Source: a candidate division TA06 bacterium SM23_40
Lineage (GTDB): Bacteria > LJUI01 > SM1-40
Length of the DNA stretch: 41,736 bases
Direction of reading: 5' to 3'
Assembly (NCBI GenBank): GCA_001303705.1
Contig: LJUI01000006.1
Location: forward strand, 1-41,736
Both the position numbers and the translations under genes were made by a program. Positions 16,809 through 41,213 of the stretch are shown in pieces (positions within the stretch are counted from its first letter, which is position 1; every line of letters starts with the position of its first letter). The notes beneath the pieces were generated by a model that saw nothing but the letters and a program-made list of their open reading frames with translations, had not been told where the DNA came from and made no database searches.

Positions 16809-17637
16809 ACCCCTCTGCCGCTCTTCCCAAGCCCCAGGATTCCCTCCAGCACGTCCCAGACGCAGGCCTCCCGTCCACGCCTGTCAGCTTTCCGCCCCGA
16901 GACCAGCCCCGCAGCCGGAATAAGGTCTCCACACCACACTACCTGACCACCCCTGGAGAAGGCGTTACAAGCCGCCTTCGTGGCGAGAGCGGAAGGACGA
17001 GGCCCAGAGGGCTGCCTGTGCCAGGGCAACACAGAACATTTTTACCTGGCTAAGAATAGAACATTTCTATTTGGCATTGACACCCACGCCCGGACGCGTG
17101 GTGTGAAAAGGATGGACCTGAGAAAAAAGACGCTCCTGCTCCCTGCGCCGAATCCAATCCCCGGCCCTCCTGAGTTGTGTAACTATCCCTAGTATAGCCG
17201 GATAGAGGATGACTATAGAGCATGGCAGACGCGCCGCGGGTCCGGACCGAGGCACGATGACTGAGTTGAGTCGTCTGGGGAGGATCCACTGGCTCAAAGA
17301 CACCCCGGGTAAAGGAATTACGGCTGCCCGCCTTCAGCCCGTCGGCCACGCCTGCGTCCCCATCCGCACCTGGTGCGAATCTATCCACATCATCCTGCCC
17401 GGAGCGTCAATGCCTTCACCGGCACATCCGACAGCGGGGCGAAGACCCCGGGCTCTATCTCGCGGGAACCCAATATCTTCCGCCAGAACCCGGCACCCCT
17501 CCCCGGCAGCGGGCCACCGCGGCCAGTCGATGGCACCGTTCTTGCTACCCGTTGGCCAACGGAGGGCCCTCGGACGTATCCCGGACCTCCCGGGTGACGA
17601 CAACTGCAACCGTACACTGAACAACGAGCGATTTCTC
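16809..17637. other. Long intergenic region, no gene recognised
   Basis: About 830 bases separate the aspartyl-protease-like gene from the rhomboid start. Open frames exist here (one runs in frame with the rhomboid gene from 17209), but their translations are Pro/Arg/Gly-rich without family resemblance and lack ribosome sites. The only structure I can point to is a tandem repeat with a TTGACA box at 17033-17082 and some G/C-rich inverted repeats around 17500-17600. No tRNA, tmRNA, RNase P or riboswitch consensus was recognised. Confidence 0.5.
17033..17082 (+). repeat. Two tandem 25-bp direct repeats, possible operator
   Basis: AGAACATTTTTACCTGGC (17033-17050) recurs as AGAACATTTCTATTTGGC (17058-17075), with 15 of 18 identical bases and a period of 25. 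The second copy runs straight into TTGACA (17076-17081). No good -10 box follows at the right distance. The arrangement resembles tandem activator or repressor sites placed just upstream of a -35 box, but the nearest downstream gene starts 555 bases away. Confidence 0.45.
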
Positions 17638-18906
17638 ATGTTTCTTCTGTACCCGGTCGGCCACGATAAAGAGGTGTGGCGCACACCCTACGTCACACTC
17701 GGGTTGATTGCCGTCAATGCCATCATCTGGCTCCTCACCCTACCGCTCGTCCTCAGCTCGCCCGAGACCTTCTTGTCCCGCTTCGGACTCATACCGGCGG
17801 ATTTCAACTGGCTCTCGATCTTCACGTCGATGTTCCTTCACGCCGGACTGTTCCATCTCGTGGGGAACCTGTGGTTCCTCTATCTGGTCGGCTGCAATAT
17901 GGAGGATGTTTGGGGCCGCCTGCCGTTCCTTGGCTTCTTTCTCCTCGGGGGGGTGGCCGGCGCTCTGGCCCACATGGCCATGAACCTCGAATCGACAATC
18001 CCGTGCATCGGTGCGTCTGGCGCGATATCCGGTGTGATGGGCGCATTCATGGTCCGCAACTATCGGACGAAAATCAAGATAGGGTGGCTATTCATATTCA
18101 TTCCTTTTGTGCGCGCGGGCACATTCAAGGCGCAGGCGTACATCGTGTTCGGCTGGTGGTTCCTCGACCAGCTCCTGCTCGCCTCACTCGGCGGCGAAAG
18201 CGGCGTCGCCGTCTGGGCCCACATCGGGGGGTTCACGTTTGGGCTCGTCGTTGCTCTGTTGATGAAGGGAATGAGGATCGAGGAGCAGTATCTCACGCCG
18301 CGCTTAGAGCAGACAACAGAGCTGGTGGAACAGGACCCGAGGTTACTGCAGGCGATCGAGGCTCGTGCAAACGGCAGCCCGGAGCACTCTCTCGATCTGC
18401 TGCGCGAGATTATTGCCGATGCCCCCGACAATATCGACGCCCGCCTCGAGGCAGCCCAGCAACAGCTCTCCCTCGGCCAGACCGAGGATGCTCTCGTCAA
18501 CTACGACAACGCCATAGAGCAGCTCCTCAAGATCGGGGATGAGAATTCCGCATTGAATGTTCTCGCAGAGCTGTCCGCAGCCGAGCTCGACGGCAAGCTT
18601 GGCCCGAATTCGCTTTTCCGTCTGGCGAATCTCCACGCCGAACGCGAGCGGTACGATGAAGCCGCGCGCCTGTTTGGGCTCATCCCCCACCTCCATGCAT
18701 CCCACCCGCTCGCGCCTGTTGCGCTATACCGCTGTGGATCTATTTTGCGCGAGAAACTGGGCGATCTGAGATTGGCCGCTGGCGCCTACCGATATCTCAT
18801 CGAACACTACCCCGACACCGAATGGATCGCGAGCGTCCAGGACGCGCTCGCTGAAATGTCGGGAACTGATCTGTCTGCCTCGACCATATCGAGTTGTCCC
18901 ACCTGA
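17638..18906 (+). CDS. Rhomboid-family intramembrane serine protease with C-terminal TPR region
   Basis: A 422-residue protein. Residues 1-210 form a rhomboid domain of about six to seven helices. It has HxxxxHxxxN (His68, His73, Asn77), the catalytic Ser127 in GASG, and His195 in AHIGGF that completes the Ser-His dyad. Residues 220-415 are soluble and helical with TPR-like periodicity (ALVNYDNAIEQLLKIGDENSALNVLAEL; YDEAARLFGLIP). Rhomboids cleave membrane proteins within the bilayer; the TPR tail probably recruits partners on the cytoplasmic side. The ATG at 17638 is chosen because MFLLYPVGHD directly precedes the first helix as in family members. The ribosome site is weak. A perfect 20-nt palindrome follows the stop (18938-18957). 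Confidence 0.88.
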   Translation: MFLLYPVGHDKEVWRTPYVTLGLIAVNAIIWLLTLPLVLSSPETFLSRFGLIPADFNWLSIFTSMFLHAGLFHLVGNLWFLYLVGCNMEDVWGRLPFLGFFLLGGVAGALAHMAMNLESTIPCIGASGAISGVMGAFMVRNYRTKIKIGWLFIFIPFVRAGTFKAQAYIVFGWWFLDQLLLASLGGESGVAVWAHIGGFTFGLVVALLMKGMRIEEQYLTPRLEQTTELVEQDPRLLQAIEARANGSPEHSLDLLREIIADAPDNIDARLEAAQQQLSLGQTEDALVNYDNAIEQLLKIGDENSALNVLAELSAAELDGKLGPNSLFRLANLHAERERYDEAARLFGLIPHLHASHPLAPVALYRCGSILREKLGDLRLAAGAYRYLIEHYPDTEWIASVQDALAEMSGTDLSASTISSCPT

Positions 18907-21472: not shown

Positions 21473-22519
21473 ATGGTTGGAATTGTAGGGTACGGTACGT
21501 ACATTCCGAGACACAGAATCAAAGTGGAAGCAATCGCCAAGGTCTGGGGAGCGGATGCACCGAGCTACGAACGCGGCCTGCTGCTCAAGGAGAAGTCCGT
21601 TCCCACGCCGGACCAGGATACGATCACGATGTCCGTCGAGGCGGCAAAGAACGCCCTGCGACGCGCCCAGATAGATCCATCGGAGATAGGCGCAGTATAT
21701 GTCGGTTCAGAGTCACATCCCTATGCTGTGAAGCCGAGCGGCACGGTCCTCGCCGAGGCAATCGGAGCGACCCCCGAAGTCCACTGCGCTGACTTCGAAT
21801 TCGCCTGCAAGGCCGGCACTGAGGGTATGTTCGTCTGCATCGGCCTCGTCCAGGCCGGCTTGATACGATATGGGCTGGGAGTCGGGGCGGATACCTCACA
21901 GGGGGCACCTGGAGATGCTCTCGAGTATTCGGCTGCCGCCGGAGCGGCCGCATTCATCTTCGGAGACGACAAGGTAGTGGCCGAAGTCGAGGAGACCTAC
22001 GCGTACATGACAGACACGCCGGACTTCTGGAGACGAGAGCATCAGTTCTATCCGGAGCACGGAGGCAGGTTCACCGGCGAGCCCGCATACTTCAAGCACA
22101 TCATGGGCGCGGCAAGAGGGATCATGGCCAAAGCGAACGCCACCGCCGCCGACTTCACCTATGTCATCTTCCACCAGCCGAATGGCAAATTCCCCCAGAG
22201 GGTCGGTAAGATGCTCGGTTTCACCAAGACCCAGATCGAGCCCGGGTGGCTCTCCCCCACCTTAGGCAATACCTATTCTGGATCATCGCCCATGGGACTC
22301 GCGTCCACGCTCGACATTGCCAAAGCAGGTGACCGGATCCTGCTCGTCTCTTATGGGTCGGGAGCGGGGAGCGATGCGTTCATCTTCCGCGTCACCGAGC
22401 GAATTGATGAAGTGCGCGACGTCGCGCCCAGAACGCGCGATCAACTCGATAACAACAAGGTCTACATCGACTACGGAACATACGCAAAGTTCCGTGGGAA
22501 GATACGCAAAGCCACCTAG
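21473..22519 (+). CDS. Hydroxymethylglutaryl-CoA synthase, archaeal type
   Basis: The 348-residue enzyme interconverts acetyl-CoA plus acetoacetyl-CoA and HMG-CoA. The catalytic Glu-Cys-His set is visible: Glu80 in [12 protein letters not shown], Cys112 in [10 protein letters not shown] and His234 in [10 protein letters not shown]. The FACKAGT context and the length match the archaeal branch rather than the eukaryotic or Gram-positive MvaS branch. The ATG at 21473 is chosen because GAGGA lies 8 bases upstream; the ATG at 21458 would cover it. It is followed 12 bases later by a thiolase and then a DUF35 gene, the order known for the archaeal thiolase/HMG-CoA synthase complex. Genes of leucine catabolism follow on the same strand, so its working direction here is an open question (see findings). 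Confidence 0.93.
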
Positions 22520-22531
22520 GAGGTTACGCGA

Positions 22532-23689
22532 ATGAGGGACGTTGCAGTAATCGGTGTGGGAATGGCCAAGTGGGGTGAATTGTGGGACAAGGCATTGCGG
22601 GACGTCTTCGTCGAAACCGCCCTCCTGGCAATCGATGATGCCGGGGTGGACCACATCGACTCGATGTACGTCGGGTGCATGTCGAGTGGACTCTTCGTCG
22701 GACAGGAGCATCTGGCATCACTTCTGGCGGACTACCTGGGCATCGCGCCCGTGCCTGCGGCGCGGGTGGAGACTGCCTGTGCCTCTGGCGGCCTTGCCTT
22801 CCGCCAGGGCTGGATGGAGGTGGCACTGGGACAGAGCGATATCGTACTCGTGTCCGGTATCGAGAAGATGACGGACGTCACAGGCGATGGCGCCACGTAT
22901 GCGCTCGGCACCGCGGCTGATCAGGAGTACGAGGGATATCACGGCATCACCTTCCCGGGCCTGTACGCCATGATGGCCAGACGGCACATGCATGACTACG
23001 GGACGACGAGAGAGCAACTGGCCCAGGTCGCAGTGAAGAATCACCGCCACGGAGCCATGAATCCCCTGGCCCAGTTCCCGTTCGAGGTGACGATCGACCA
23101 GGTGAAGAGCTCCGTCATGATCGCCGACCCCCTCAGGATACTCGACTGCTCCCCGATCACCGATGGAGCAGCCGCCGTCGTCATCTGCCCCCTGGACCGG
23201 GCCAAGACGTTGGGCGACAAACCGCCCGTCAAGATGGTCGGCTCCGGACATGCAACGGACACGATCGCACTCCACGCCCGCCCCGACATAACGTGGCTGA
23301 GCGCGACGGAGAGAGCGGCGGAAGCGGCCTATAAGATGGCAGGCGTCAAGCCGGACCAGATCGACCTGGCTGAAGTCCATGACTGCTTCACAATAGCCGA
23401 GATATGCGTTACCGAGGCCCTGGGGTTTGTCGACAGGGGAAAGGGCGGGCAGGCGGTCGAGAGCGGTTTCACCGCACTCGGTGGGACGATACCGGTCAAC
23501 ACGAGTGGGGGATTGAAGTCGAAGGGTCACCCTGTCGGCGCTACGGGGGTGGCTCAGATCGTCGAACTGACGAAGCAACTGCGCGGCGATGCTGGCGACC
23601 GGCAGGTGGAAGGTGCCAGGGTCGGGCTTGCCCAGAACATGGGTGGTAGCGGTGGCAGCACCCTCGTACACATACTGGAGGCAACATAG
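22532..23689 (+). CDS. Acetyl-CoA C-acetyltransferase (thiolase), archaeal/SCP-x type
   Basis: This 385-residue thiolase would interconvert two acetyl-CoA and acetoacetyl-CoA. The nucleophile Cys83 lies in VETACASGG. His137 in GYHGITFPG, the [10 protein letters not shown] segment and [10 protein letters not shown] near residue 330 supply the other active-site parts of the SCP-x-like/archaeal thiolases. Length is normal. AGGAGG precedes the ATG by 8 bases. It begins 12 bases after the HMG-CoA synthase, and the DUF35 gene starts at the base after its stop. In the archaeal complex the thiolase and HMG-CoA synthase share a CoA site so that acetoacetyl-CoA is passed on directly; the same arrangement is inferred here. 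Confidence 0.92.
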
Positions 23690-24079
23690 ATGAGTTCACC
23701 CCGATACTGGAGAGAGATCCCTCAGCGCTATAGACTCGAGGCGGGCAAGTGCACAGACTGTGGGAATATCCACTTCCCGCCCCGGCTCGTCTGTTCTGCA
23801 TGCAGCGGACGCCAGTTCGAGACTGTCAAGCTCTCAGATGAGGGGACGGTCTTCACGTACACGATTATCCGCGTCGCGCCCAGCCAGTTCGTCGATCAGG
23901 CTCCCTACGCCGTCGGGATCGTCGAACTGGACGACGGAGTGAGAATCTCGGCGCAGATCGCGGACGTCGACCTCGACGCACTCGAGATCGGCCAGCGTGT
24001 CCGCATCGAATTTCGCCTGATCCAGAACGAGGGAGAGGCCGGGATCATCTGCTACGGATACAAGTGCGTCCCGGCCTAG
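23690..24079 (+). CDS. DUF35 Zn-ribbon/OB-fold scaffold protein of the thiolase-HMGCS complex
   Basis: A 129-residue protein with an N-terminal rubredoxin-like zinc ribbon (Cys21, Cys24, Cys35, Cys38 in CTDCGNIHFPPRLVCSAC) and a C-terminal OB fold (about 48-125). These are the two halves of DUF35. In archaea this protein bridges thiolase and HMG-CoA synthase and holds the pantetheine part of the CoA ligand. The gene starts immediately after the thiolase stop, which implies tight co-translation. A 132-base gap then separates it from the carboxyltransferase gene, with no clear terminator or promoter seen in it. Confidence 0.93.
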   Translation: MSSPRYWREIPQRYRLEAGKCTDCGNIHFPPRLVCSACSGRQFETVKLSDEGTVFTYTIIRVAPSQFVDQAPYAVGIVELDDGVRISAQIADVDLDALEIGQRVRIEFRLIQNEGEAGIICYGYKCVPA

Positions 24080-24211
24080 GACCCGCGAGGAGGACGGGTG
24101 GGAGATCCATGGCCGAATGACCGAATGATCAGTGATCCCGGTCCGGGCGGTCCTCGCCGCTCCACCAGACGTCAGATCTCCTGCCCCAACGGCTGACGAG
24201 AGAGTCGAAGC

Positions 24212-25819
24212 ATGTATCGGATAGAATCGAGGATCGACACGTCGAGTCAGGAATTCAAGGAGAACAAGGAGTACTACCTCGAGAAGATCGAGGAATTCCG
24301 AAGCCGACTCGAACAGGCAAAGGCCGGCGGGCCACCGGCGGCCCATGAAAAACACAAGTCCCGCGGCAAGCTCACCGCGCGGGAGCGCCTCCGGCTTCTC
24401 TTCGACCCCGGCACCCCCTTCCTCGAGTTCAGCTCGCTCGCAGCATATGACATGTACAAGAATGAAGCCCCCTGTTCAGGCATCGTGACAGGTGTCGGTG
24501 TGGTCCACGGCAAAGAGGTGCTCATCGTTGCCAACGACGCTACCGTCAAAGGCGGGACCTATTTCCCCGAAACGATCAAGAAGCACGTCCGGGCCCAGGA
24601 GATCGCACTCGAAAACAGACTCCCCTGTGTCTATCTCGTCGACTCGGGCGGGATCTTTCTTCCACTCCAGGCAGGAGTCTTCCCGGATAAAGGGCATTTC
24701 GGCAGCATCTTCTACAATCAGGCGAGACTGTCGGCGTTCTCCATTCCGCAGATTTCGGTCGTCCTCGGGTTCTGCACCGCCGGCGGCGCATACGTGCCGG
24801 CAATGAGCGACGAGACGGTGATCGTGAAGGGAAGAGGTACCATCTACATCGGCGGCCCTCCGCTCGTGAAGGCCGCCACGGGCGTCGATGTCACCCCGGA
24901 GGAACTCGGGGGAGCGGATGTCCACTGCCGCATCTCCGGTGTCTCCGATCACTACGCGCTCGACGACGAACATGCCCTGGAGATCACCCGGAACATCGTC
25001 GAAAACCTCCCCCGACCAACGAAATTCCAACTGGATGTGGCTCCGCCCGAGGATCCGGCATATGACCCGGAGGAGATCTACGGGATAGTCCCCCGCGATC
25101 TCCGAAAGCAGTTCGACATCCGCGAAGTGATCGCGCGATTGGTCGACGGAAGCCGGTTTCACGAATTCAAGGAACTCTACGGCACTACCCTCGTCTGCGG
25201 CTTTGCCCGCATCATGGGGTACCCCGTCGGAATCCTCGCGAACAATGGGGTCCTCTTCTCGGAGAGCGCGCTGAAAGGAGCCCATTTCGTCTCGATGTGT
25301 TCCGTGCGCAAGATCCCCCTCCTCTTCCTTCAGAATATCACCGGGTTCATCGTTGGCAAGGAGTACGAACACGGGGGCATTGCGAAGGACGGGGCAAAGA
25401 TGGTGCATGCGGTCGCCAATGCGGACGTGCCCAAGTTCACAGTGATCGTCGGGGGATCGCATGGAGCCGGCAACTACGGGATGTGTGGGCGGGCGTACGG
25501 ACCGCGCCTCATGTGGATGTGGCCTGCCGCGAAGATCTCCGTCATGGGCGGCGAGGAAGCAGCGAATGTACTCCTTACTGTCAAGATGGACATACTCCGC
25601 CGCGAAGGAAAGACGATGACCCCGGAGGAACAGGAGGCGTTCAAGGCCCCCACCCTGGAGAAATACGAGCAAGAAGGAAGCGCATATTTTGCCACCGCCC
25701 GGTTGTGGGACGATGGTGTGATCGAGCCGCTCGACACCAGGACGGCCCTCGCCCTGGCGATCTCCATGTCCCTCAATGCACCGATCCCGGATCACCGCTT
25801 CGGCGTATTCAGGATGTAG
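24212..25819 (+). CDS. Methylcrotonyl-CoA carboxylase, carboxyltransferase (beta) subunit
   Basis: The 535-residue carboxyltransferase moves CO2 from carboxybiotin to an acyl-CoA. It reads as the methylcrotonyl branch, not the propionyl branch. The evidence is the [17 protein letters not shown] segment, [25 protein letters not shown] followed by [37 protein letters not shown], and [17 protein letters not shown]. Length equals the family (about 535). The gene is followed by methylglutaconyl-CoA hydratase, biotin carboxylase and a biotin carrier, as in liu-type leucine/isovalerate clusters. It would act on 3-methylcrotonyl-CoA to give 3-methylglutaconyl-CoA in the cytosol. Run in reverse it would decarboxylate the latter. 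The ribosome site GAGAGAG is moderate. Confidence 0.92.
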
Positions 25820-25850
25820 AAGATCCATAGCCCGAGTGAGCAGACCGAGA

Positions 25851-26654
25851 ATGCAGGACTACACGACCATCAGATGTGATGTCGGCGACAGGGTGGGACG
25901 CATCCTGCTCAATCGTCCCGAGATCCACAATGCGTTCAACGACGTCATGATTACCGAGCTGCTTGAGGTCCTCTCCCGCCTGGCGTCTGACGAGGACGTC
26001 CGCGTCGTCGTCCTGACCGGCAGCGGCAAGTCATTCTGCGCCGGCGCTGACCTCCACTGGATGAAGGCGGTCAAGGACTACTCGTACGACGAAAATGTCG
26101 CCGACGCTCTCGAGCTGTCGAAGCTCCTCTACGCCATCTACTCGCTCCCCAAGCCGACGATCGCCAGAGTGAATGGCGCAGCCATCGGGGGGGGCACCGG
26201 CTTCGTGTCGACCTGCGATATGGCCATCGCTGCCGAGACAGCGAAGTTCAGTTTCAGCGAGGTCAAGATCGGAGTTGTGCCTGCATGTATCTCTCCCTAC
26301 GTAGTCCGAAAGGTGGGTGAGGGAACATGCCGTGAGTTCTTCCTTACCGGCAAGCGTCTCACAGCTGCCGAAGTGGAGCAAGCGGGACTCGTCAACCGGG
26401 TCGTTCCTGTTGAACAGCTCGACGCCGCTGTCGACGATCTGATCAAGGAGCTTCTCTCGAGCGGGCCACATGCACTCGGGGTATGCAAAGACTTACTGGA
26501 GAACGTCCCGTCGATGTCGCTCGAAGACGCTCAGCTATACACGGCGAAGATCCTCGCCACGCTCCGCATGGGCGACGAGGGTCAAGAAGGCATGTCTGCG
26601 TACTTCGATAAGAGGAAACCGCAGTGGGCTTCGCCCCAGCAGCCAGCGGACTGA
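25851..26654 (+). CDS. Methylglutaconyl-CoA hydratase-like enoyl-CoA hydratase
   Basis: A 267-residue crotonase-family enzyme. The oxyanion-hole segments are seen as SFCAGADLHWMK (about 60-71) and NGAAIGGGTGF (about 108-118). FSEVKIGVVPACISPYVV (about 134-151) is the form found in LiuC/AUH-type hydratases, which hydrate 3-methylglutaconyl-CoA to HMG-CoA. Start at ATG 25851; GTG 25836 is in frame but has no better ribosome site. It follows the carboxyltransferase gene by 31 bases. With the upstream HMG-CoA synthase it closes the path between methylglutaconyl-CoA and acetoacetyl-CoA. Assignment to the methylglutaconyl substrate rests on motif similarity and context; a generic short-chain enoyl-CoA hydratase is the alternative. 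Confidence 0.87.
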   Translation: MQDYTTIRCDVGDRVGRILLNRPEIHNAFNDVMITELLEVLSRLASDEDVRVVVLTGSGKSFCAGADLHWMKAVKDYSYDENVADALELSKLLYAIYSLPKPTIARVNGAAIGGGTGFVSTCDMAIAAETAKFSFSEVKIGVVPACISPYVVRKVGEGTCREFFLTGKRLTAAEVEQAGLVNRVVPVEQLDAAVDDLIKELLSSGPHALGVCKDLLENVPSMSLEDAQLYTAKILATLRMGDEGQEGMSAYFDKRKPQWASPQQPAD

Positions 26655-26771
26655 CCAGATCCTGTCTACCGATCGAGATCGAGGCGGTGTAGGGGGTAGT
26701 GCGGTGTACGGGGCAGTCCTGAGGCAGGCCCAGGAGGCTCTGGCCCGAAGGAGGGAGACTTTCCGAGCACA

Positions 26772-28292
26772 ATGCTGAAGAAAGTCCTTGTAGCAAACAG
26801 AGGTGAGATCGCCGTACGCATCATCCGGGCCTGTCGGGAGGTCGGTATCCCGACAGTTGCTGTCTATTCCGATGTCGATCACTCCTCCCTTCACGTCCAG
26901 CTCGCCAACGAGGCATACTCGCTCGGGCCCCCACCTCCTCTGGAAAGCTATCTCAATATCGATAAGATCATCGACATCGCAAAGATGAGTGGGGCTGACG
27001 CCATCCATCCCGGATATGGCTTCCTCGCCGAGAATTACCATTTCACCAAGCGATGCGAGGATGAGGGGCTGATTTTCGTGGGCGCCACCTCCGAGGCCAT
27101 CAGGTTGCTCGGGAACAAGCTGGAATCCCGGGAGACGATGATACGGGCTGGAATCCCGGTCATCCCCGGCATGGAGACTGCCGTTCGCGATACGGCCGCC
27201 CTCGTGCAACAGGCATCCCGAATCGGATACCCGGTTCTGATCAAAGCTGCCTCCGGCGGAGGAGGCAAGGGCATGAGGGCCGTCAGTTCTCAGGCAGAGC
27301 TCGAACGCGCACTGGAGGGAGCCCGCCGGGAGTCGAAATCGGCGTTCGGCGACGACACCGTCTACGTAGAGAAGTTCATCGAACGGCCCCGCCACGTGGA
27401 ATTTCAGATACTGGCGGACCATTCGGGCAACACAGTCCACCTATTCGAACGGGAGTGCTCGATCCAGCGGCGGCATCAGAAGATAGTCGAAGAAACTCCC
27501 TGTACCGCTCTCGACGACCAGCTGAGGAGGAAGATGGGAGAGGTGGCGATCGAAGTCGCCAGGGTGGCACACTACACAAATGCGGGGACCGTCGAGTTCC
27601 TGCTCGATCAGGATGGCGACTTCTACTTCCTCGAAGTCAACACCAGGGTCCAGGTGGAACACCCCATAACCGAGATGACGACCGGTATCGACATCGTCAA
27701 GCTACAGCTCGCCCTCGCCTCGGGAGACCCCATTCCGGTGAAACAACAGGATATCGTCCCGAGAGGCCATTCGATCGAAGCGAGGATCTACGCCGAGGAC
27801 GCTGAGAACGATTTCATGCCTTCGTTCGGAACAATACTATTCCTCCAGGAACCGGCCGGCCCTGGAATACGCAACGATACCGGCATCTACGCCGGATGCG
27901 ACGTGACGATGCACTATGACCCCATCCTGGCGAAACTGATCGTCTGGGACGAGAACCGCGAGATGGCGCGAAGTCGCATGCTCACGGCACTCAGGGATTA
28001 CACCATTCTAGGGATCAAGACCACGATTGCCTTCCTTCGAGACGTCATCGCGCACCCGGAGTTTGCCGCCGGCAATACACATACGGACTTCATCCCCGAG
28101 CATTTCGCCCAGTGGCGCGAAGCGGGGGACGAACCGGCGAACCTGGATGTTGCGCTCCTCTCGGCCGCCATCTACAGGCATCTCAATCCGCCGCGGGCAG
28201 CAGGACGAGCAGCCGCATCGGGCCCTGCATTTCCCAATCCATGGAATGCTACCGGAGAGTGGGAGATCGGCCAGGGGAAGGGAGCAGACTGA
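26772..28292 (+). CDS. Biotin carboxylase subunit of an acyl-CoA carboxylase
   Basis: The 506-residue ATP-grasp enzyme carboxylates biotin with bicarbonate and ATP. It begins KKVLVANRGEIAVRIIRACRE, followed by HPGYGFLAEN (about 77-86), the glycine-rich ATP lid KAASGGGGKGMR (about 157-168) and EVNTRVQVEHPITEM (about 290-304). The C-terminal biotin-carboxylase domain ends near 440, and the last 60 residues include PRAAGRAAASGP and NPWN. The latter resembles the start of the linker found in one-piece methylcrotonyl-CoA carboxylase alpha chains. The carrier domain is on a separate gene 7 bases downstream in another frame. A good AAGGAGGG lies 14 bases before the ATG, rather far. It should serve the carboxyltransferase at 24212-25819. 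Confidence 0.92.
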   Translation: MLKKVLVANRGEIAVRIIRACREVGIPTVAVYSDVDHSSLHVQLANEAYSLGPPPPLESYLNIDKIIDIAKMSGADAIHPGYGFLAENYHFTKRCEDEGLIFVGATSEAIRLLGNKLESRETMIRAGIPVIPGMETAVRDTAALVQQASRIGYPVLIKAASGGGGKGMRAVSSQAELERALEGARRESKSAFGDDTVYVEKFIERPRHVEFQILADHSGNTVHLFERECSIQRRHQKIVEETPCTALDDQLRRKMGEVAIEVARVAHYTNAGTVEFLLDQDGDFYFLEVNTRVQVEHPITEMTTGIDIVKLQLALASGDPIPVKQQDIVPRGHSIEARIYAEDAENDFMPSFGTILFLQEPAGPGIRNDTGIYAGCDVTMHYDPILAKLIVWDENREMARSRMLTALRDYTILGIKTTIAFLRDVIAHPEFAAGNTHTDFIPEHFAQWREAGDEPANLDVALLSAAIYRHLNPPRAAGRAAASGPAFPNPWNATGEWEIGQGKGAD

Positions 28293-28299
28293 GAGAAAA

Positions 28300-28809
28300 G
28301 TGGAACTGAATCTCACGTTCAATAACGAAGAGTACAGACTGGGGGTGGAACGAGCTGAGGACGGATACGAGGTGACGGTGGGAGATCGGATCTACCAGGT
28401 CTCAGTACGCCCCATCTCCTCGAACACGTTCTCTCTCGTAATCCACGGGGCCAACCGGCTCATCCATATCGCGTCGGCCGGGCGAGCCACATACGTGGCC
28501 GTCGATGGGCGGCAGTTCTGCTTCCAGGAAGCCACACCCGGTGGCCGTAAGCACGGCACCAGGGACCTCCCGATCGACAGACGAGAATTGACGGCGATCG
28601 CGCCTATGCCCGGAAGGGTGGTCAAGCTGAACGTCACGGAGGGCGATCGGGTTGAACGCGGCCACACACTGGCAGTGGTAGAGGCCATGAAGATGGAGAA
28701 CGAGGTGCGGGCCCCGATTGACGGCTACGTGGACCGCGTCCTCGTGCGGGAGGACGACATGGTGAACGTGGGACAGGTGATGATCGAGCTCAAGAGTGGG
28801 GAGGATTGA
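28300..28809 (+). CDS. Biotin carboxyl carrier protein of the acyl-CoA carboxylase
   Basis: A 169-residue protein with a C-terminal biotinyl domain. The biotin-accepting Lys131 lies in VEAMKMENEV, and GRVVKLNVTEGDRVERG precedes it. Residues 1-75 form a beta-rich part (YEVTVGDRIYQVSVRP) like the BT/linker region of methylcrotonyl- and propionyl-CoA carboxylase alpha chains. The start is taken as GTG 28300, 7 bases after the biotin carboxylase stop, with GAGAG just upstream; larger in-frame starts overlap the previous gene. Together the two genes (506 + 169 residues) equal one usual alpha chain (about 660), so this looks like a naturally split alpha subunit. It is the last gene of the operon. 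Confidence 0.9.
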   Translation: MELNLTFNNEEYRLGVERAEDGYEVTVGDRIYQVSVRPISSNTFSLVIHGANRLIHIASAGRATYVAVDGRQFCFQEATPGGRKHGTRDLPIDRRELTAIAPMPGRVVKLNVTEGDRVERGHTLAVVEAMKMENEVRAPIDGYVDRVLVREDDMVNVGQVMIELKSGED

Positions 28810-31221: not shown

Positions 31222-31536
31222 TACTTTTTCTCTCGAAAACAAAATATTTTTTTACCGACTTTCGGCCCGTTCACCGATCGGACCAGGACCTCGTACAGAC
31301 ACGGAGCAACGTCCGACCCATATCGTCTCCGCCTCGTCAGTCTCCGGTCTCAATTCTTCAGGCCACTACTTCCGACAGAACCTATCGAGGCTTTTTCGTT
31401 GACGCCAACGAGAAAACCGGCTAATCTCCCAGCACAGCATCACGCGGAGTCAGGCAACGAAGCTGATCGGAGCGGCATGGCCCGATCCCATAGACGGCTA
31501 TAGGGATGTCACATGCGGATGAGAGGGGGAGAAGGT

Positions 31537-33213
31537 ATGCTAAGGCTTGTTGAGTGCGTCCCCAACTTCAGTGAAGGCAGGGACATGGATATTGTCAACA
31601 ATATCTCAGCCGAGATCTCCAGCACAGCCGAGGTCAAGCTCCTCGACGTAGATCCCGGCCGCGATACCAACCGAACCGTCGTGACGTTCATCGGTTCTCC
31701 GGAAGGTGTCATCGAGGCAGCGTTCAACGCCATCAGGAAGGCAGCCGAGCTCATCGACATGTCGAAACACGAGGGCGCCCATGCTCGCATGGGAGCAACC
31801 GACGTCTGTCCGCTCGTACCCGTGAGTGGAGTCACCATGGACGATTGTGTCGAGCTGGCCAGGCGACTCGGGAAACGGGTGGCCGACGAACTCAAGATTC
31901 CGGTCTACCTCTATGAGAATGCAGCCACCGTACCCGAACGCCGGAAGCTGCCGACGATTCGAAAGGGTGAGTACGAGGGACTGGCGGACAAGCTGAAGGA
32001 TCCCCAATGGAAGCCAGATTTCGGCGAACCGGTCTTCAACCCCAGGTCCGGGGCGACGGTAGTCGGAGCGCGCGAATTCCTCATCGCGTACAACATAAAT
32101 CTCAACACGACCGACGCGAGGCTGGCGAAGGAGATAGCCTTCAATATCCGCGAGACCGGAAAGGCAAAGCGGGACAAGGACGGCAGGATCGTCAGAGACG
32201 AGAATGGCCGCGCCCTGAGACAACCAGGGACCCTCAAAGCATGCAATGCTACAGGGTGGTATCTCGATGATTTCGGCATCGCCCAGGTCACGATGAATCT
32301 CATCAACTACAAGGTGACGCCGCCCCACGTTGCGTTCGAAGAGGTCGTTCGCGAGGCAGATCGCCTCGGGCTTCGCGTCACCGGCAGTGAGCTCGTGGGC
32401 TTGATCCCGAAAGCTGCCGTACTGGAGGCGGGCCGCTACTTTCTACAGAAGCAAGGGAAGTCCGCTGGCGTACCTGAGGAAGTCCTCATCGAAACCGCAA
32501 TACGCTCGATGGGGTTCAGGGAGATCGCCGAATTCGACCCGCGGAAGAAGATCATCGAATATCAATTCGGCCGGAACGAGGATTCCCTCGTATCAAAGGA
32601 TATCCAGAGTTTCATGAACGAGCTGTCTGTCGACTCTCCGGCTCCTGGAGGGGGGAGTGCGGCTGCCCTGTGCGGAGCTCTCGCAGCATCGCTTGCCTCC
32701 ATGGTGGCCAATCTCACCTTCGGCAAGAAGGAATATAGAGACTCGCAGGATGAGATGGAACGTATCGCCGTCAGGGCTCAGGAGCTGAAGGATGGGTTCG
32801 TGGCCGCCATCGACCGCGATACCGCGGCCTTCAACAGAGTCATGGCGGCATTCAGGCTGCGGAAGAAGACGGACGAGGACAAGGCGCGGAGACAGGAGGC
32901 CATCCAGGAGGCAACAAAGCAGGCCACCCTCGTGCCGCTCGAGGTACTCGAAACCTCGGTCGAGGCCCTCAAGCTCGCACTCCGCGTCGCCGAGAAAGGG
33001 TTGCGGACCTCCGTCAGCGATGCGGGCGTGGCCGGCGTCGCCGGGCGGGCGGCGGCCATCGGAGCCTACTACAACGTCCGGATCAACCTCGCATCGATCA
33101 CCGATGAGGCGTTTGTGGGAAAAGTGCGCAATCAGGCAACGACGTACCGCGATGAGGCGCTCAAGCTCGCCGATCGGATCGCAGAGGCCGTCGGGCAAGA
33201 ACTCGAGAAATAG
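31537..33213 (+). CDS. ftcD: Bifunctional glutamate formimidoyltransferase / formimidoyl-THF cyclodeaminase
   Basis: A 558-residue fusion like the vertebrate FTCD (about 541). The N-terminal formimidoyltransferase part (about 1-300) starts RLVECVPNFSEGRD and has KHEGAHARMGATDVCPLVPV with His82 at the position of the known catalytic His. The C-terminal cyclodeaminase part (about 345-555) carries PAPGGGSAAALCGALAASLASMVANLT. It transfers the formimino group from formiminoglutamate (histidine breakdown) to tetrahydrofolate and cyclises it to methenyl-THF with release of ammonia. ATG 31537 is chosen over 31513 because it follows GGGGGAGAAGGT and aligns with the family start. No other histidine-degradation gene is in the window. 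Confidence 0.95.
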   Translation: MLRLVECVPNFSEGRDMDIVNNISAEISSTAEVKLLDVDPGRDTNRTVVTFIGSPEGVIEAAFNAIRKAAELIDMSKHEGAHARMGATDVCPLVPVSGVTMDDCVELARRLGKRVADELKIPVYLYENAATVPERRKLPTIRKGEYEGLADKLKDPQWKPDFGEPVFNPRSGATVVGAREFLIAYNINLNTTDARLAKEIAFNIRETGKAKRDKDGRIVRDENGRALRQPGTLKACNATGWYLDDFGIAQVTMNLINYKVTPPHVAFEEVVREADRLGLRVTGSELVGLIPKAAVLEAGRYFLQKQGKSAGVPEEVLIETAIRSMGFREIAEFDPRKKIIEYQFGRNEDSLVSKDIQSFMNELSVDSPAPGGGSAAALCGALAASLASMVANLTFGKKEYRDSQDEMERIAVRAQELKDGFVAAIDRDTAAFNRVMAAFRLRKKTDEDKARRQEAIQEATKQATLVPLEVLETSVEALKLALRVAEKGLRTSVSDAGVAGVAGRAAAIGAYYNVRINLASITDEAFVGKVRNQATTYRDEALKLADRIAEAVGQELEK

Positions 33214-33334: not shown

Positions 33335-35449
33335 CTAGCACGGGGCTGGACTCACATTGATGCGAACGTCAACGACCTTGCAGTCCTCGGGCCTGGGAGC
33401 AGCGATGAACGGGTTGACATCGAGCTCACCGATACAGTGGAAGTCAGTAACCAACTGAGAGAGCCGCTGGAGGGATTCGACCAACGTTTCGATATGGACA
33501 CCCTCCTCCCCGCGCATTCCGGTGAGGAGCGGATAGCCGCGAATGGACGTCACCATCTCCTCCGCGTCCACATCAGTGATGGGAACGACACGGAAAATCA
33601 CATCACGTAGCACCTCGACGTACTTCCCTCCCAGTCCGAACATCAGAAGGGGACCATATGTCGGGTCGTAGACCATGCCGAGAATAACCTCCTGGCCCGT
33701 CTTCCCCATCTCCTGCACATAATAGCCTTCGACCCTGTCGATCACACCGTGTTTCGTCAGGGCCTTCTTCATCGTCCTGAAGGCCTCCACGAACTCCTTG
33801 CCATCACGTATGTCGACGATGACGCCGCCGATATCTGATTTGTGAACGATACCCCTTCCGGCGACCTTGAGGACGAGCGGATATCCCAGCTCTTCGGCTG
33901 CCTCGAGGCCATCCTCGATCGTATCGACAAGTTTCAGGCGGCAATACCGGAACCCGTATGCGGCGAGGACTTCGTAGGCCTCCAGCTGCTCGAGATATCC
34001 TCCTCCGCCACGCTGCCGGGATTCGAGTATCTTCGCTGCTCTTTCCCGGTCGACATCCGCGACTGCGACCTCTCCCTTCGGTCTGGACCGCCATGTATGG
34101 TAGTGGTACAGCTCGGCACACGCACGGGCGGCAGATTCGGGAAACCGGTACACCGGCGGACTGTCGGGCACAATCAGTGGAACCTGCTCGAAAAATGTCT
34201 CCTCGGCCATGAAGACCCCCAATACTGGCTTCTCGAACCGCTGCTTCACCTCCGTCACCGCCCTGATGATGTCAACCGGGTTGATCATCATGGGTGGTAC
34301 GAACGTGACAATCACCATATCGTTGTCGGGATCGGCGAGGATGAGTTCGAGCGCTCTGCGATAGTCATCGGCAACCGCGCTCGCTATCATGTCGACTGGA
34401 TTGACGATGCTCGCTTCAGGAGGGAGAAACCGCCGGAGCCCCTCGACTGTCTCGGGCGACAGTGTGGCAATCTTTAAGCCGAGACTGACGCAGGCGTCTG
34501 TGGCCATTATGGCGGGGCCGCCTGCATTCGTGAGGATGGCAACTCGATTGCCGCAGGGCACAGGACATTTGGTGAACGCGAGTATGAGATCGAGCATCTC
34601 TTCGATATCGAACGCTCGAATCACTCCACACTGATGAAGAAGCGCGTCGACGGCCACATCCCGGGCCACCATTGCGCCGGTATGGGAAGATGCGGCGCGG
34701 GCTCCTGCCTCCGTCCTACCCGACTTCACTACGATGATCGGCTTTTTCTTGGAGATACGTCTCGCGAGTGGGGTGAATGAGCGCGGGTCGCCGAAGGATT
34801 CGAGATAGAGAGCTATCACTTCTGTCTGGTCATCATTCTCCCAGTATTCGAGCAGGTCGTTCCCGGAGATGTCCGCCTTATTGCCGACACTGGCGAAATA
34901 GGAGAATCCTATGTGAGCACGCTGAGCGACATTGAGGATCGCCACCCCTAACGCGCCGCTCTGGGACATGAAGCCGATCCTTCCCTGAGACGGCTGCGTA
35001 GGGGCAAAGGTCGCGTTGAGACGAACATCAGGATCGGCGTTGAATACTCCCATGCAGTTGGGCCCGATCATGCGCATACCATGGCGGCGCACAATCTCCA
35101 TCAACTTCTGTTCGCGCTCGATGCCCTGGCCGCCGATCTCCTTGAAGCCAGCGCTTATGACGATAAGGCCTTTGACACCCTTTTCTCCACACTGCTCCAC
35201 GACCTCGAGCACGCTCTCCTTGGGAACGACGATAACCGCCAGATCAACTTCATCCGGGATATCAGTAATTGAATGGTAGCACTTGATACTGTGGGTGAAC
35301 TCGGCCCTCGGGTTGACAGGGAATAGCTTGCCGTTGAACTCGAAATCAATGATATTGCGCACGATCTGGTGGCCGATCGCACCCTTGCGCGTTGAGGCCC
35401 CGATCACGGCAACTGACTTCGGTCTGAAAATGGGGTCGAGCGATGACAT
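33335..35449 (-). CDS. ADP-forming acyl-CoA synthetase (acetate-CoA ligase type), fused alpha-beta
   Basis: This 704-residue enzyme fuses an alpha part (CoA-binding Rossmann domain, about 1-130, SVAVIGASTRKGAIGHQIVRN; succinyl-CoA-ligase-like domains, about 145-460) to an ATP-grasp beta part (about 480-700, ELGYPLVLKVAGRGIVHKSDIGGV). The phosphohistidine loop is readable as AASSHTGAMV (about residues 254-263). It would convert acyl-CoA plus ADP and phosphate to acid, CoA and ATP, or the reverse. Acetyl-, isovaleryl- or other acyl-CoA are all possible substrates. The ribosome site is weak. It lies 69 bases downstream of the small zinc-ribbon gene on the same strand and probably shares its transcript. 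A G/C-rich hairpin covers its stop codon but lacks a T tract. Confidence 0.92.
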   Translation of the reverse strand: MSSLDPIFRPKSVAVIGASTRKGAIGHQIVRNIIDFEFNGKLFPVNPRAEFTHSIKCYHSITDIPDEVDLAVIVVPKESVLEVVEQCGEKGVKGLIVISAGFKEIGGQGIEREQKLMEIVRRHGMRMIGPNCMGVFNADPDVRLNATFAPTQPSQGRIGFMSQSGALGVAILNVAQRAHIGFSYFASVGNKADISGNDLLEYWENDDQTEVIALYLESFGDPRSFTPLARRISKKKPIIVVKSGRTEAGARAASSHTGAMVARDVAVDALLHQCGVIRAFDIEEMLDLILAFTKCPVPCGNRVAILTNAGGPAIMATDACVSLGLKIATLSPETVEGLRRFLPPEASIVNPVDMIASAVADDYRRALELILADPDNDMVIVTFVPPMMINPVDIIRAVTEVKQRFEKPVLGVFMAEETFFEQVPLIVPDSPPVYRFPESAARACAELYHYHTWRSRPKGEVAVADVDRERAAKILESRQRGGGGYLEQLEAYEVLAAYGFRYCRLKLVDTIEDGLEAAEELGYPLVLKVAGRGIVHKSDIGGVIVDIRDGKEFVEAFRTMKKALTKHGVIDRVEGYYVQEMGKTGQEVILGMVYDPTYGPLLMFGLGGKYVEVLRDVIFRVVPITDVDAEEMVTSIRGYPLLTGMRGEEGVHIETLVESLQRLSQLVTDFHCIGELDVNPFIAAPRPEDCKVVDVRINVSPAPC

Positions 35450-38031: not shown

Positions 38032-40095
38032 ATGTCACCGACGCGGGAGATCTACTGGAATATCCCCGGCCATCTGCTGCTGTACCCGCTCTTCGCCATC
38101 TCTCTTGCCATCTTCGCCTATGGAGTCTGGAGAAGAGTGCGCCTGTGGATGCTCGGCGCACGGCACCTCAGCGCCGCTTCCCCCGGCGTCATCCATGAGA
38201 TCTATCCAACCACCCCGGGCCGGCGCATAGCTCGCGTAGTCTCTCTCGGACTGGGACACGCACGATTTTTCCGGACGCCATTTCCCGGTATCGCTCACTT
38301 CCTGCTGTTCTGGGGATTTGCTGTTCTCCTTGTCGGCACGATAATCGTCTTTCTCGAGGCCGACCTCCCGGGCCGCTTCTACTTCGGTCCGTTCTATTTG
38401 GCTGTCTCATTCGCCCTCGAGCTCGGAGGGATCGCCTTCCTTCTCGGAATTCTGCTCCTAGGGTTGAGACGCTACATCCAACGCCCCGAGCAGCTGGACG
38501 AGCGATTCGACGACAAGATCGCACTCGCCCTTCTTCTCTTCCTGGCCGTAAGCGGCTTCCTCATCGAAGGACTCCGCCTCTATGTTCTACAGCCACCGTG
38601 GGAGAGTTGGTCGTTCGTAGGAGCCGGCATCGCCAGGCTCGCCGGTGCGGCCTCGTTGAGCGATGGCGCAACTACCAGGCTGCACCAGCTCTTCTGGTGG
38701 CTGCACCTTCTGGCCACATTCGGATTCATTGCTTATATTCCGTATTCGAGGCTCCTCCACATCCTCACATCGCCGATCAACATCGCCGTCGCGTCCTCCG
38801 ATCCCCGGGGAACACTCAGGCCCATGGATCTCGAGGCATCGGAGATCTATGGCACCTCGCAGATCGACGAATTCGCGCCGAAGCAGCTTCTCGAGCTCGA
38901 CGCCTGCACCCGGTGTGGCCGGTGTCAGGCTGTCTGCCCCGCCCATCTCAGCGACAAGCCGCTCTCTCCCAAGAAAGTTCTTCAAGATTTGAGACACCAC
39001 CTCTCCGTGTACGGACCGACCATCCTGAGGGCGTCGAGGGCGGGAGAGAAGAATCAGGAAGCCACAGCGGACCCGGAGCTGCCCCTTGTCACCGGCGGGA
39101 CGATCGAGGAGGACGTGCTCTGGGCGTGCACCACCTGCGCCGCCTGCGAGACTGAGTGCCCCGTCCTTATACGGGTGATCGACAAGATCGCCGACATGCG
39201 TCGATACCTCGTCCTCTCGGAGAGCAAGTTTCCGTCCGAGCTCCGCCTCTTCTTCAAGAACATGGAGACGAATTTCAATCCGTGGGGGATCGGGTGGGCG
39301 ACCCGTGCCGACTGGGCCCAGGGACTCGACATCCCCATCCTCTCTGAGGTTGGGTCGAGCAAGTTGCTGTACTGGGTCGGCTGCGCCGCCTCATTCGACG
39401 AACGGAATAAGAAGGTCGCCGTGGCGACCTCCAGGCTCCTCAAGGCTGCCGGCGTCGAATTCGCAATCCTCGGTGCCGAGGAGAAATGCTGTGGAGAGAC
39501 TGCTCGCCGCCTGGGTAACGAATACCTGTTTCAGATGATGGCGATGGAGAATGTCGAACTCTTCAAGCAGTATGGTGTAACACGGATCGTCACCACTTGC
39601 CCTCACTGCTACAATTCCTTCAGGCACGAGTATCGAGAACACGGGACCGGAATCGAGGTGATCCACCATACCGAGCTCCTCGCCACATTGATCGAGGATA
39701 GTCGGCTCCGCCTCCATGGCCCCGCCGCCTCGGGAACAGCGGTCTATCACGACTCATGCTATCTCGGCAGATATAACGACATATTCGAAGCACCGCGTTC
39801 CGTCCTCAGAGCTGCTCTTGACCCGGCGCCGCAGGAGCTGCCCCGTGCGATGGATCGATCCTTCTGCTGTGGCGCGGGCGGCGGCCGGATGTGGATGGAA
39901 GAGACGATCGGCCAGAGGATAAACGAGTTGCGCACGCGCGAGGCGCTCGAGGCGGGTGTGGCGACGATATGCACCGCCTGTCCCTACTGCCTCACCATGT
40001 TCGAAGACGGGTTGAAGGCGGAGAACGCTGACGAACGTGTTCGCGTTCGGGACATCGCGGAGCTGGCCGAGGAGGCGGGAGAGGTATCGGTCTGA
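38032..40095 (+). CDS. Membrane Fe-S oxidoreductase (HdrD/GlpC-like; ETF:quinone oxidoreductase type)
   Basis: A 687-residue protein. The N-terminal 245 residues hold about five to six membrane helices with several His residues (for example in GIAHFLLFWG and WWLHLLATFG), like NarI-type b-haem subunits. Two 4Fe-4S motifs follow: CTRCGRCQAVCP (292-302) and CTTCAACETECP (366-376). Then come two CCG cysteine-rich domains: CCGETARRLG with CPHC, and CCGAGGGRMWME with CTACPYC. This is the layout of the HdrDE-like fusion proposed to pass electrons from electron transfer flavoprotein to menaquinone. It is convergent with etfA/etfB, which supports that role, and would serve acyl-CoA dehydrogenases. A weak promoter candidate is at 37950-37978. 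Confidence 0.88.
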   Translation: MSPTREIYWNIPGHLLLYPLFAISLAIFAYGVWRRVRLWMLGARHLSAASPGVIHEIYPTTPGRRIARVVSLGLGHARFFRTPFPGIAHFLLFWGFAVLLVGTIIVFLEADLPGRFYFGPFYLAVSFALELGGIAFLLGILLLGLRRYIQRPEQLDERFDDKIALALLLFLAVSGFLIEGLRLYVLQPPWESWSFVGAGIARLAGAASLSDGATTRLHQLFWWLHLLATFGFIAYIPYSRLLHILTSPINIAVASSDPRGTLRPMDLEASEIYGTSQIDEFAPKQLLELDACTRCGRCQAVCPAHLSDKPLSPKKVLQDLRHHLSVYGPTILRASRAGEKNQEATADPELPLVTGGTIEEDVLWACTTCAACETECPVLIRVIDKIADMRRYLVLSESKFPSELRLFFKNMETNFNPWGIGWATRADWAQGLDIPILSEVGSSKLLYWVGCAASFDERNKKVAVATSRLLKAAGVEFAILGAEEKCCGETARRLGNEYLFQMMAMENVELFKQYGVTRIVTTCPHCYNSFRHEYREHGTGIEVIHHTELLATLIEDSRLRLHGPAASGTAVYHDSCYLGRYNDIFEAPRSVLRAALDPAPQELPRAMDRSFCCGAGGGRMWMEETIGQRINELRTREALEAGVATICTACPYCLTMFEDGLKAENADERVRVRDIAELAEEAGEVSV

Positions 40096-40217: not shown

Positions 40218-41213
40218 CTACTCCCCCAGGATATGCCTCAGCTCCTGGGTGACTATCGGAACAGCCTCGAACAGATCGGCCACGATCCCGTAGTCCGCAA
40301 TCTTGAAGATGGGCGCCTCCGGATCCTTGTTGATCGCCACGATACATTTCGACGAAGACATTCCCACCAGGTGCTGTATCGCCCCGGAGATACCGCATGC
40401 AATATAGAGATTGGGAGATATCACCTTGCCGGTCTGGCCGACCTGATCGGCGTGATCTCTCCACCCCTCATCGACGGCGGATCGTGAAGCGCCGACGGCA
40501 GCACTGAGCAGATCGGCCAATTCCTCGAGGATTTTGAAATTCTCGGCACCCTTCATTCCCCTACCGCCCGAGACGACAACCTCCGCATCGGCGACATTGA
40601 TCCGCTCACCTACAGTCTCTATCATCTCAACGATGGCGGTGCGGGCAGGCTCGGGCGAGGGAACGAACTCCAGGGTCTCTGTCTCCGCAGTCCGTGCTGC
40701 ATCCGGTTCGCCGAGGGGAAAGATGTTGGGGCGCACAGTTGCCATCTGAATGCCCCCGTGCGGCCAGTCCACCTCGGCGATGACCTTCCCTCCGTACATG
40801 GGTCTGTATGCCTTGAGCGTCTGCCCATCACCCGTCACGTTCAGGTCGGTACAGTCTGTCGCCAGTCCTGCTCCGATGCGCGTTGCAACCCGAGGGGCAA
40901 GATCCTTCCCCAGCACTGTTGCGCCGAAGAGAACGATGGCCGGTTGCTGCCGGCGCAACGCCTCAGTCAGTGCCGACGCATAAGCATCAGTAGTGTAGTG
41001 TTCCAGAGCGTCGTGCTCGACAAGGAGAACGCGATCTGCACCGTACTGCGCCAGCGTACCTGCAGCATCGCGGATCCCCTTCCCGCAGACGATGGCTACA
41101 ACGTCCTTCCCTAACGTATCTGCAAATTCCCTGGCCTGACTGAGGAGTTCGAGCGATACTCTACGCGCCTCACCTTTCCTCATCTCGATGAATACAGCAA
41201 CACCATTCGGCAC
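40218..41213 (-). CDS. etfA: Electron transfer flavoprotein alpha subunit
   Basis: This 331-residue subunit binds FAD and, with EtfB, takes electrons from acyl-CoA dehydrogenases. The C-terminal FAD domain is clear: [24 protein letters not shown] (about 210-233), [13 protein letters not shown] (about 236-248), [29 protein letters not shown] (about 252-280) and [23 protein letters not shown] near the end. The N-terminal domain is of normal length. The start is GTG at 41213, with AGGAGG 10 bases upstream. It follows etfB by 21 bases in one transcript. Its neighbour across the terminator is the likely quinone-reducing partner. Confidence 0.95.

Follow-up and report, generated by a model that had tools for sequence, protein, structure and literature searches.

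The closest described counterpart of the locus reported here is the thiolase/HMGCS/DUF35 complex of Methanothermococcus thermolithotrophicus (PDB 6ESQ/6ET9). The same three proteins are predicted here, their genes are adjacent, and the presumed active-site residues are conserved. However, the archaeal complex opens mevalonate synthesis, whereas the present triad is found in bacteria that have the MEP pathway, lack a canonical HMG-CoA reductase (HMGR), and carry the triad in an operon with methylcrotonyl-CoA carboxylase (MCC). In myxobacteria, the aib route has HMG-CoA, methylglutaconyl-CoA, and methylcrotonyl-CoA as intermediates and is tied to an HMG-CoA synthase (HMGS). That HMGS is of another type, and the route has a dedicated decarboxylase and reductase in place of the biotin-dependent MCC and archaeal-type triad seen here. 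The thiolase-plus-DUF35 architecture is shared with BbsAB (benzoylsuccinyl-CoA thiolase) and with PhlABC, which has an HMGS homologue as well, but both are less similar to the triad and act on other substrates. A Liu/isovalerate degradation cluster is known from Desulfococcus multivorans (PMC5109826). Our locus would share with it the route to HMG-CoA through MCC and a predicted crotonase-type hydratase, as well as the anaerobic use, but the triad appears to stand in the place of HMG-CoA lyase, and free acetoacetate would not be expected.

The seven-gene locus and its conservation

The window is the whole analyzed stretch of 41,736 nucleotides from the candidate division TA06 bacterium SM23_40, whose genome is 89.8% complete. 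All seven genes lie on the plus strand at positions 21473 to 28809, where the preliminary description had placed them, in the order HMGS, thiolase, DUF35, MCC carboxyltransferase, LiuC-type hydratase, biotin carboxylase, and biotin carrier. Profile and structure comparisons bore out the identities it had given to the seven same-strand genes. They also support the continuous chain it had drawn, 3-methylcrotonyl-CoA ↔ methylglutaconyl-CoA ↔ HMG-CoA ↔ acetoacetyl-CoA + acetyl-CoA ↔ acetyl-CoA.

The archaeal-type HMGS (21473 to 22519; 348 aa) scored 561.5 bits against TIGR00748 (cut-off, 353). The acetoacetyl-CoA thiolase of the SCP2/archaeal type (22532 to 23689; 385 aa) scored 552 bits against NF004720, above the cut-off of 420, and 554 bits against NF053570, below the cut-off of 600. 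The DUF35 scaffold protein (23690 to 24079; 129 aa) has a zinc ribbon and an OB fold (PF12172 and PF01796). Only 12 bp separate the HMGS and thiolase genes, and the DUF35 start codon abuts the thiolase stop codon (gap of 0 bp). PDB 6ESQ is the best structural relative of all three proteins, with identities of 64% for HMGS (chain I), 50% for the thiolase (chain A), and 41% for DUF35 (chain E). HMGS residues E80, C112, and H234, which we take to be catalytic from general knowledge of HMGS, are unchanged across 80 sequences, and the presumed active-site residues of the thiolase (C83, H283, and H333) are unchanged across 76. By family, gene adjacency, and presumed catalytic residues, the predicted proteins match the archaeal-type thiolase/HMGCS/DUF35 set. 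PhlA, PhlB, and PhlC rank among the next structural relatives, and the triad might instead be a PhlABC-like acyltransferase that does not form HMG-CoA. However, bit scores are higher against 6ESQ than against the Phl proteins (HMGS, 491 versus 222; thiolase, 390 versus 131; DUF35, 106 versus 57), and the HMGS retains E80, C112, and H234. On this lower similarity and the retained active-site residues we ruled out a PhlABC-type identity, which we regard as extremely improbable.

The MCC carboxyltransferase (beta) subunit (24212 to 25819; PF01039, 511 bits) scored 737 bits against the Pseudomonas aeruginosa MCC beta structure and 736 against mitochondrial MCC beta, compared with 468 against geranyl-CoA carboxylase (GCC) and at most 296 against subunits of the propionyl-CoA carboxylase (PCC) type. 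Its top structure match, 9tps (759 bits), carries the label propionyl-CoA carboxylase. By sequence, the predicted subunit is of the MCC clade and not PCC or GCC; the latter two identities were ruled out by the bit scores to solved structures. A separate PCC-like carboxyltransferase adjoins an acyl-CoA dehydrogenase (ACAD) elsewhere in this genome (L086). The next gene encodes a LiuC/AtuE-like enoyl-CoA hydratase, a predicted 3-methylglutaconyl-CoA hydratase (25851 to 26654; PF00378, 211 bits). Its homology starts at about position 25851, and an in-frame ATG lies further upstream at 25776. The LiuC/AtuE-like assignment follows its best models, NF005675 (279 bits) and NF004227 (263 bits), both scores being below the respective cut-offs; its best structures are 3i47 and 4kpk. 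The predicted biotin carboxylase subunit of MCC (26772 to 28292; PF00289, PF02786, and PF02785) is followed by a biotin carboxyl carrier subunit with a GTG start (28300 to 28809; PF00364, 66.8 bits, and a weak match to PF21139, BT_MCC_alpha), whose reading frame contains the biotinylation motif EAMKME.

A homologue search inside the window's own phylum returned only its own genome, so the relatives were taken from another search; most are fragmented metagenome-assembled genomes (MAGs). The order of all seven genes is identical at 26 of the 80 homologous loci; these 26 span at least nine phylum labels, and many of the other loci end at contig ends. The linkage therefore goes beyond chance, and the co-conservation of the seven genes in relatives that the preliminary description had proposed to check was found. 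The MCC-linked state occurs in scattered parts of the HMGS tree, with 12 changes, of which at least 8 are forced by well supported branches. This pattern suggests that the linkage arose or was retained many times.

HMG-CoA lyase and isoprenoid genes in triad-bearing genomes

The preliminary description had noted the lack of an HMG-CoA lyase at the locus, and a profile search (NF004283) of the whole genome, at its 89.8% completeness, likewise detected none. Among 50 triad-bearing genomes, 9 had a lyase above the curated cut-off. The lyase was rarer when the triad was linked to MCC, being present in 2 of 34 linked and 7 of 16 unlinked genomes (Fisher P = 0.0027). A tree-controlled test of linkage against lyase went in the predicted direction but was underpowered, with few independent pairs (median P = 0.5). 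The linked genomes that also carry a lyase are G017 and G023, both over the cut-off, and G045, which has a split match. When the split match in G045 is counted as a lyase, the enzyme is missing from 34 of the 39 triad genomes that have an MCC-clade carboxyltransferase. In G016, a lyase lies about 2.7 kb from MCC, and the triad is at a separate locus without MCC.

Because the genome is incomplete and most relatives are fragmented MAGs, there is room for an overlooked lyase, and the classical pathway might operate with a lyase in unassembled sequence or one too divergent for the profile. However, none of the six single-contig chromosomes with an MCC-linked triad (G007, G014, G024, G037, G038, and G048) has a lyase, although the same profile detects lyases at 256 to 370 bits in related Aminicenantes, Zixibacteria, Planctomycetota, and others. 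Given these six lyase-free chromosomes, we consider a missed lyase very unlikely.

The genome has DXR, of the MEP pathway, and in the search for canonical HMGR the sole match was a divergent homologue of 455 aa (41 bits). Mevalonate synthesis was ruled out for this genome on these two grounds, and the combination that would have explained the triad differently, a mevalonate pathway with a separate lyase, is not what the genome holds. Across the set, 44 of 51 genomes carry DXR, and 5 of 50 carry a full-length HMGR. Four of these five have no DXR (G027, G032, G038, and G046), as a mevalonate route predicts. The first three of these have the MCC-linked cluster, so in them the triad probably also works forward, for isoprenoids. 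These genomes speak for the possibility that the triad makes HMG-CoA mainly for other ends (in some lineages, mevalonate) and just happens to lie beside MCC. However, the prevalence of DXR and the rarity of full-length HMGR argue against a shared HMG-CoA pool, and most carriers have no known outlet for HMG-CoA besides the MCC-triad operon. We therefore think mere co-location improbable; mevalonate synthesis does not appear to explain the triad in general.

A proposed lyase-free route

With the lyase missing and the triad in its place beside leucine-breakdown genes, reverse operation of the triad is probable. We propose that the operon is probably a lyase-free module for the degradation of leucine or isovalerate, its direction being drawn from gene context. 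A branched-chain 2-oxoacid:ferredoxin oxidoreductase and an Etf-linked ACAD would supply 3-methylcrotonyl-CoA. By homology, MCC would convert this to 3-methylglutaconyl-CoA at the cost of one ATP, and the LiuC-type hydratase would turn the product into HMG-CoA. HMGS, working in reverse, would split HMG-CoA with CoA into acetyl-CoA and acetoacetyl-CoA. The latter would be handed to the thiolase and, with a second CoA, give two further acetyl-CoA. The net reaction would be HMG-CoA + 2 CoA → 3 acetyl-CoA + H2O, and the carboxylate bought with the ATP of MCC would finish as a thioester. No free acetoacetate would then arise, and no CoA-transferase or ligase would be needed to reactivate it. Of 51 genomes, a single one has a match above the cut-off for the acetoacetate CoA-transferase family TIGR02429, and that genome has a lyase and an unlinked triad.

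Several points count against this proposal. HMGS is usually regarded as near-irreversible in the condensing direction. The ACADs found in this genome lack the classical isovaleryl-CoA dehydrogenase signature, and the one at C124 is Bcd-like. Also counted were the three linked genomes with HMGR and no DXR, the three linked genomes that carry a lyase, and the low power of the tree-controlled test. Our literature search returned no paper showing the thiolase/HMGCS/DUF35 complex in reverse, and nothing direct on the triad in leucine degradation or on thermodynamic values. On balance, it seems fairly likely that this is a widespread and apparently undescribed pathway of uncultured bacteria, in which the reverse triad replaces the lyase, yields three acetyl-CoA, and conserves the carboxylation ATP.

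If so, a complex studied as the archaeal entry to isoprenoids would serve catabolism, reversed, in many uncultured bacterial lineages. Standard annotation would overlook leucine degradation in its carriers because the expected lyase is absent. The assembly would store carboxylation energy as a thioester and save about one ATP equivalent per leucine, a saving relevant to energy-limited anaerobes. Natural reversal of HMGS would also become directly testable with three purified proteins.

Electron transfer, dehydrogenases, and the direction of flux

The window holds further genes relevant to the direction of flux. A membrane Fe-S oxidoreductase with NarI-like and CCG domains (38032 to 40095, plus strand; PF02665, Fer4, and PF02754) resembles EtfAB:menaquinone oxidoreductase, an analogue of which is known from Syntrophomonas wolfei (PMC5101538). 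EtfA (40218 to 41213) and EtfB (41235 to 41702) follow on the minus strand (PF01012 and PF00766); EtfB is a 155-aa open reading frame in which only the latter half of the ETF domain was matched, and the window ends at 41736. On the same strand, an ADP-forming acyl-CoA synthetase of the acetate-CoA ligase type (33335 to 35449; TIGR02717, 544 bits, cut-off 567; ATP-grasp_5) may provide an ATP-yielding end step. VorB is present in the genome (553 bits).

Four ACADs were found in the genome. All four have IGEGT or YEGT in place of the GAGT motif, which we take from general knowledge as the criterion for isovaleryl-CoA dehydrogenase, so none has the classical signature. In relatives, same-strand ACADs lie downstream of the complete cluster at seven loci (L012, L013, L024, L034, L042, L049, and L056). 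In the genome studied here, the ACAD at C124 shares 69% identity with the L024 enzyme. Its best scores are against enzymes of the clostridial Bcd type and enzymes like acryloyl-CoA reductase, which can act reductively.

The preliminary description had held a catabolic and an anabolic direction level. Sequence cannot fix the direction, but the context favors catabolism: MCC is ATP-dependent, VorB is present, EtfAB occurs with the menaquinone oxidoreductase-like protein, an ACAD stands beside the cluster in several relatives, and there is an ADP-forming acyl-CoA synthetase and no acetoacetate CoA-transferase. In the anabolic direction, the triad would condense three acetyl-CoA to HMG-CoA, the hydratase would dehydrate, MCC would run backwards as an ATP-yielding decarboxylase, and an Etf-linked reductase would form isovaleryl-CoA. 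This product would serve iso-branched lipids or leave as a fermentation end product, by a logic like that of the myxobacterial route. Condensation is the described direction of the triad, every step is reversible in principle, and the type of ACAD found beside the cluster is similar to Bcd and to acryloyl-CoA reductase. We nevertheless consider both this flux and such a use of isovaleryl-CoA unlikely. Myxobacteria rely on the dedicated decarboxylase and reductase rather than on MCC, and VorB can yield isovaleryl-CoA directly from the leucine-derived oxoacid. The lyase profile detected no LeuA-type enzyme in this genome, with matches in 14 of 14 control genomes, which fits the use of imported leucine. 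Finally, EtfAB and the menaquinone oxidoreductase-like protein suit oxidation.

The seven-gene cluster and its relatives

The seven genes at 21473-28809 lie on one strand. Profile searches identify their products as an archaeal-type HMG-CoA synthase (HMGS), an SCP2-type thiolase, a DUF35 protein, a methylcrotonyl-CoA carboxylase (MCC) carboxyltransferase, a crotonase-type hydratase, a biotin carboxylase, and a biotin carrier protein. HMGS, thiolase, and DUF35 form a triad whose nearest solved structure is in each case 6ESQ, the Methanothermococcus complex (64%, 50%, and 41% identity, respectively). Against MCC beta structures the carboxyltransferase scored 736 to 737 bits, compared with 468 for geranyl-CoA carboxylase and at most 296 for PCC-type subunits. 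Its top match, 9tps (759 bits), is annotated as propionyl-CoA carboxylase, which we take to be a matter of naming within the carboxyltransferase's own clade. LiuC/AtuE-like models are closest to the hydratase, and because the scores fall under their cut-offs, we infer its exact substrate.

Scanning 84,980 species genomes for HMGS yielded at least 586 confirmed relatives, from which the best 80 loci were retained. The identical seven-gene order on a single strand recurs in 26 of these best 80 loci (L010-L017, L022, L024, L025, L029, L031, L032, L034, L037, L038, L040, L042, L043, L046, L049, L056, L071, L072, and L079), and many of the remaining loci end at contig ends. The relatives' record titles, which are binning labels, include Aminicenantes, Zixibacteria, Gemmatimonadota, Coatesbacteria, Delongbacteria, Eisenbacteria, Latescibacterota, Ignavibacterium, Deltaproteobacteria, and others. 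The linked state (MCC genes near the triad) requires 12 changes on the HMGS tree. Well supported branches force at least 8 of these, and the state is more clustered than shuffled labels (as low in 2 of 500 shuffles). Pairwise distances of the linked proteins correlate (r 0.54-0.78), which is weak evidence because the comparison held no unlinked control gene.

Six triads (L045, L063, L065, L075, L076, and L080) have a different biotin carboxylase, 44-50% identical. Their carboxyltransferase, where seen, is just 33-35% identical to the window's, and a hydratase immediately follows DUF35 in five of the six. They are perhaps a parallel version using another carboxylase.

Absence of HMG-CoA lyase

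A lyase profile search found no HMG-CoA lyase in the window's own genome (2.88 Mb, 189 contigs, 89.8% complete), the sole representative of its phylum among the genomes searched. The profile matched in all 14 control genomes, presumably via LeuA-type relatives. The own genome gave no match whatever, and therefore LeuA-route leucine synthesis is probably missing as well.

Among 50 triad-bearing genomes, nine exceeded the lyase cut-off: 2 of the 34 with an MCC-linked triad, linkage being scored on either strand inside the fetched flank, versus 7 of the 16 others (Fisher p 0.0027). Counting a split hit in G045 as a lyase gives 3/34 and p 0.007. Lyase is absent from all six single-contig chromosomes with a linked triad (G007, G014, G024, G037, G038, and G048; the G038 cluster is missing the adjacent hydratase), and from 34 of the 39 genomes carrying an MCC-clade carboxyltransferase. 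An independent-pairs tree test of linkage against lyase went in the predicted direction in nearly all pairings, with significance unreachable. Genome G016 has the classical arrangement, with MCC about 2.7 kb from a lyase and the triad at a separate locus without MCC.

Proposed reversal of the triad

We infer a mechanism, a direction, and energetics in which the triad would run in reverse (HMG-CoA + 2 CoA -> 3 acetyl-CoA), in place of lyase in leucine or isovalerate breakdown. What the analysis itself demonstrates is which genes are present, how they are ordered and conserved, and which are missing. The standard free energies of the HMGS and thiolase steps are opposite in sign and roughly similar in size, so the overall reaction should sit near equilibrium; the open-access papers searched yielded no thermodynamic values for it. 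The classical lyase route leaves free acetoacetate, whose reactivation costs about 1 ATP equivalent. No TIGR02429 acetoacetate CoA-transferase was found in the own genome, and the one genome of 51 with a match over the cut-off, G049, carries a lyase, and its triad is unlinked. HMGS-thiolase coupling inside one complex has been described for the archaeal enzyme, as summarised in PMC12329534. Similar coupling here would let thiolysis drag HMGS backwards.

In the open-access papers searched, the triad turned up solely in the context of mevalonate synthesis in archaea or of other thiolase complexes, and descriptions of anaerobic isovalerate degradation all involved the lyase. Because the search covered open-access papers, the priority of the proposed role in leucine breakdown is uncertain.

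Supporting genes and the isoprenoid route

Six POR_N matches occur in the own genome. One is VorB (553 bits; cut-off, 399), a subunit of the oxidoreductase turning branched-chain oxoacids into branched acyl-CoA. The search found four acyl-CoA dehydrogenases (ACADs) in the genome, and an ACAD lies downstream of the complete cluster on the same strand in L012, L013, L024, L034, L042, L049, and L056. The own genome's ACAD at C124 shares 69% identity with the one in L024 and about 62% with those in L034, L029, and L056. Its catalytic Glu motif is the usual IGEGT, not that of classical isovaleryl-CoA dehydrogenases. Among solved structures it is closest to a chain of 5ol2, a clostridial butyryl-CoA dehydrogenase/Etf complex. 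For these reasons it is a candidate isovaleryl-CoA dehydrogenase, and it may have a reductive role. A YtnP-lactonase-like metallo-beta-lactamase-fold gene repeatedly adjoins the ACAD (L024:19299-20150, L032, L034, L046, and L085:395-1252).

The window also encodes an ADP-forming acyl-CoA synthetase (33335-35449), EtfAB (from 40218), and a NarI/CCG-domain Fe-S protein (38032-40095) resembling the EtfAB:menaquinone oxidoreductase reported from Syntrophomonas wolfei (PMC5101538). A glutamate formiminotransferase/cyclodeaminase fusion (31513-33213) points to histidine degradation, and a TPR region is fused with a rhomboid domain at 17209-18906.

DXR, the MEP-pathway marker, is present in the own genome and in 44 of 51 genomes overall. 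Full-length HMG-CoA reductase (HMGR), of the mevalonate pathway, occurs in 5 of 50 (G027, G032, G038, G039, and G046). DXR was not found in four of these five, where HMGR lies inside unusually long frames of 753-803 aa (G027:C254, G032:C37, G038:C1, and G046:C46); HMGR without DXR makes a switch from the MEP to the mevalonate pathway likely there. Three of the four (G027, G032, and G038) have the linked cluster, and their triad may serve both roles. The sole HMGR-like protein of the own genome (G000:C91:3289-4158; L089:1477-2844, minus strand) is divergent (455 aa, 41 bits), with CxxC motifs preceding the divergent HMGR domain. Similar weak matches occur in G002 and G004.
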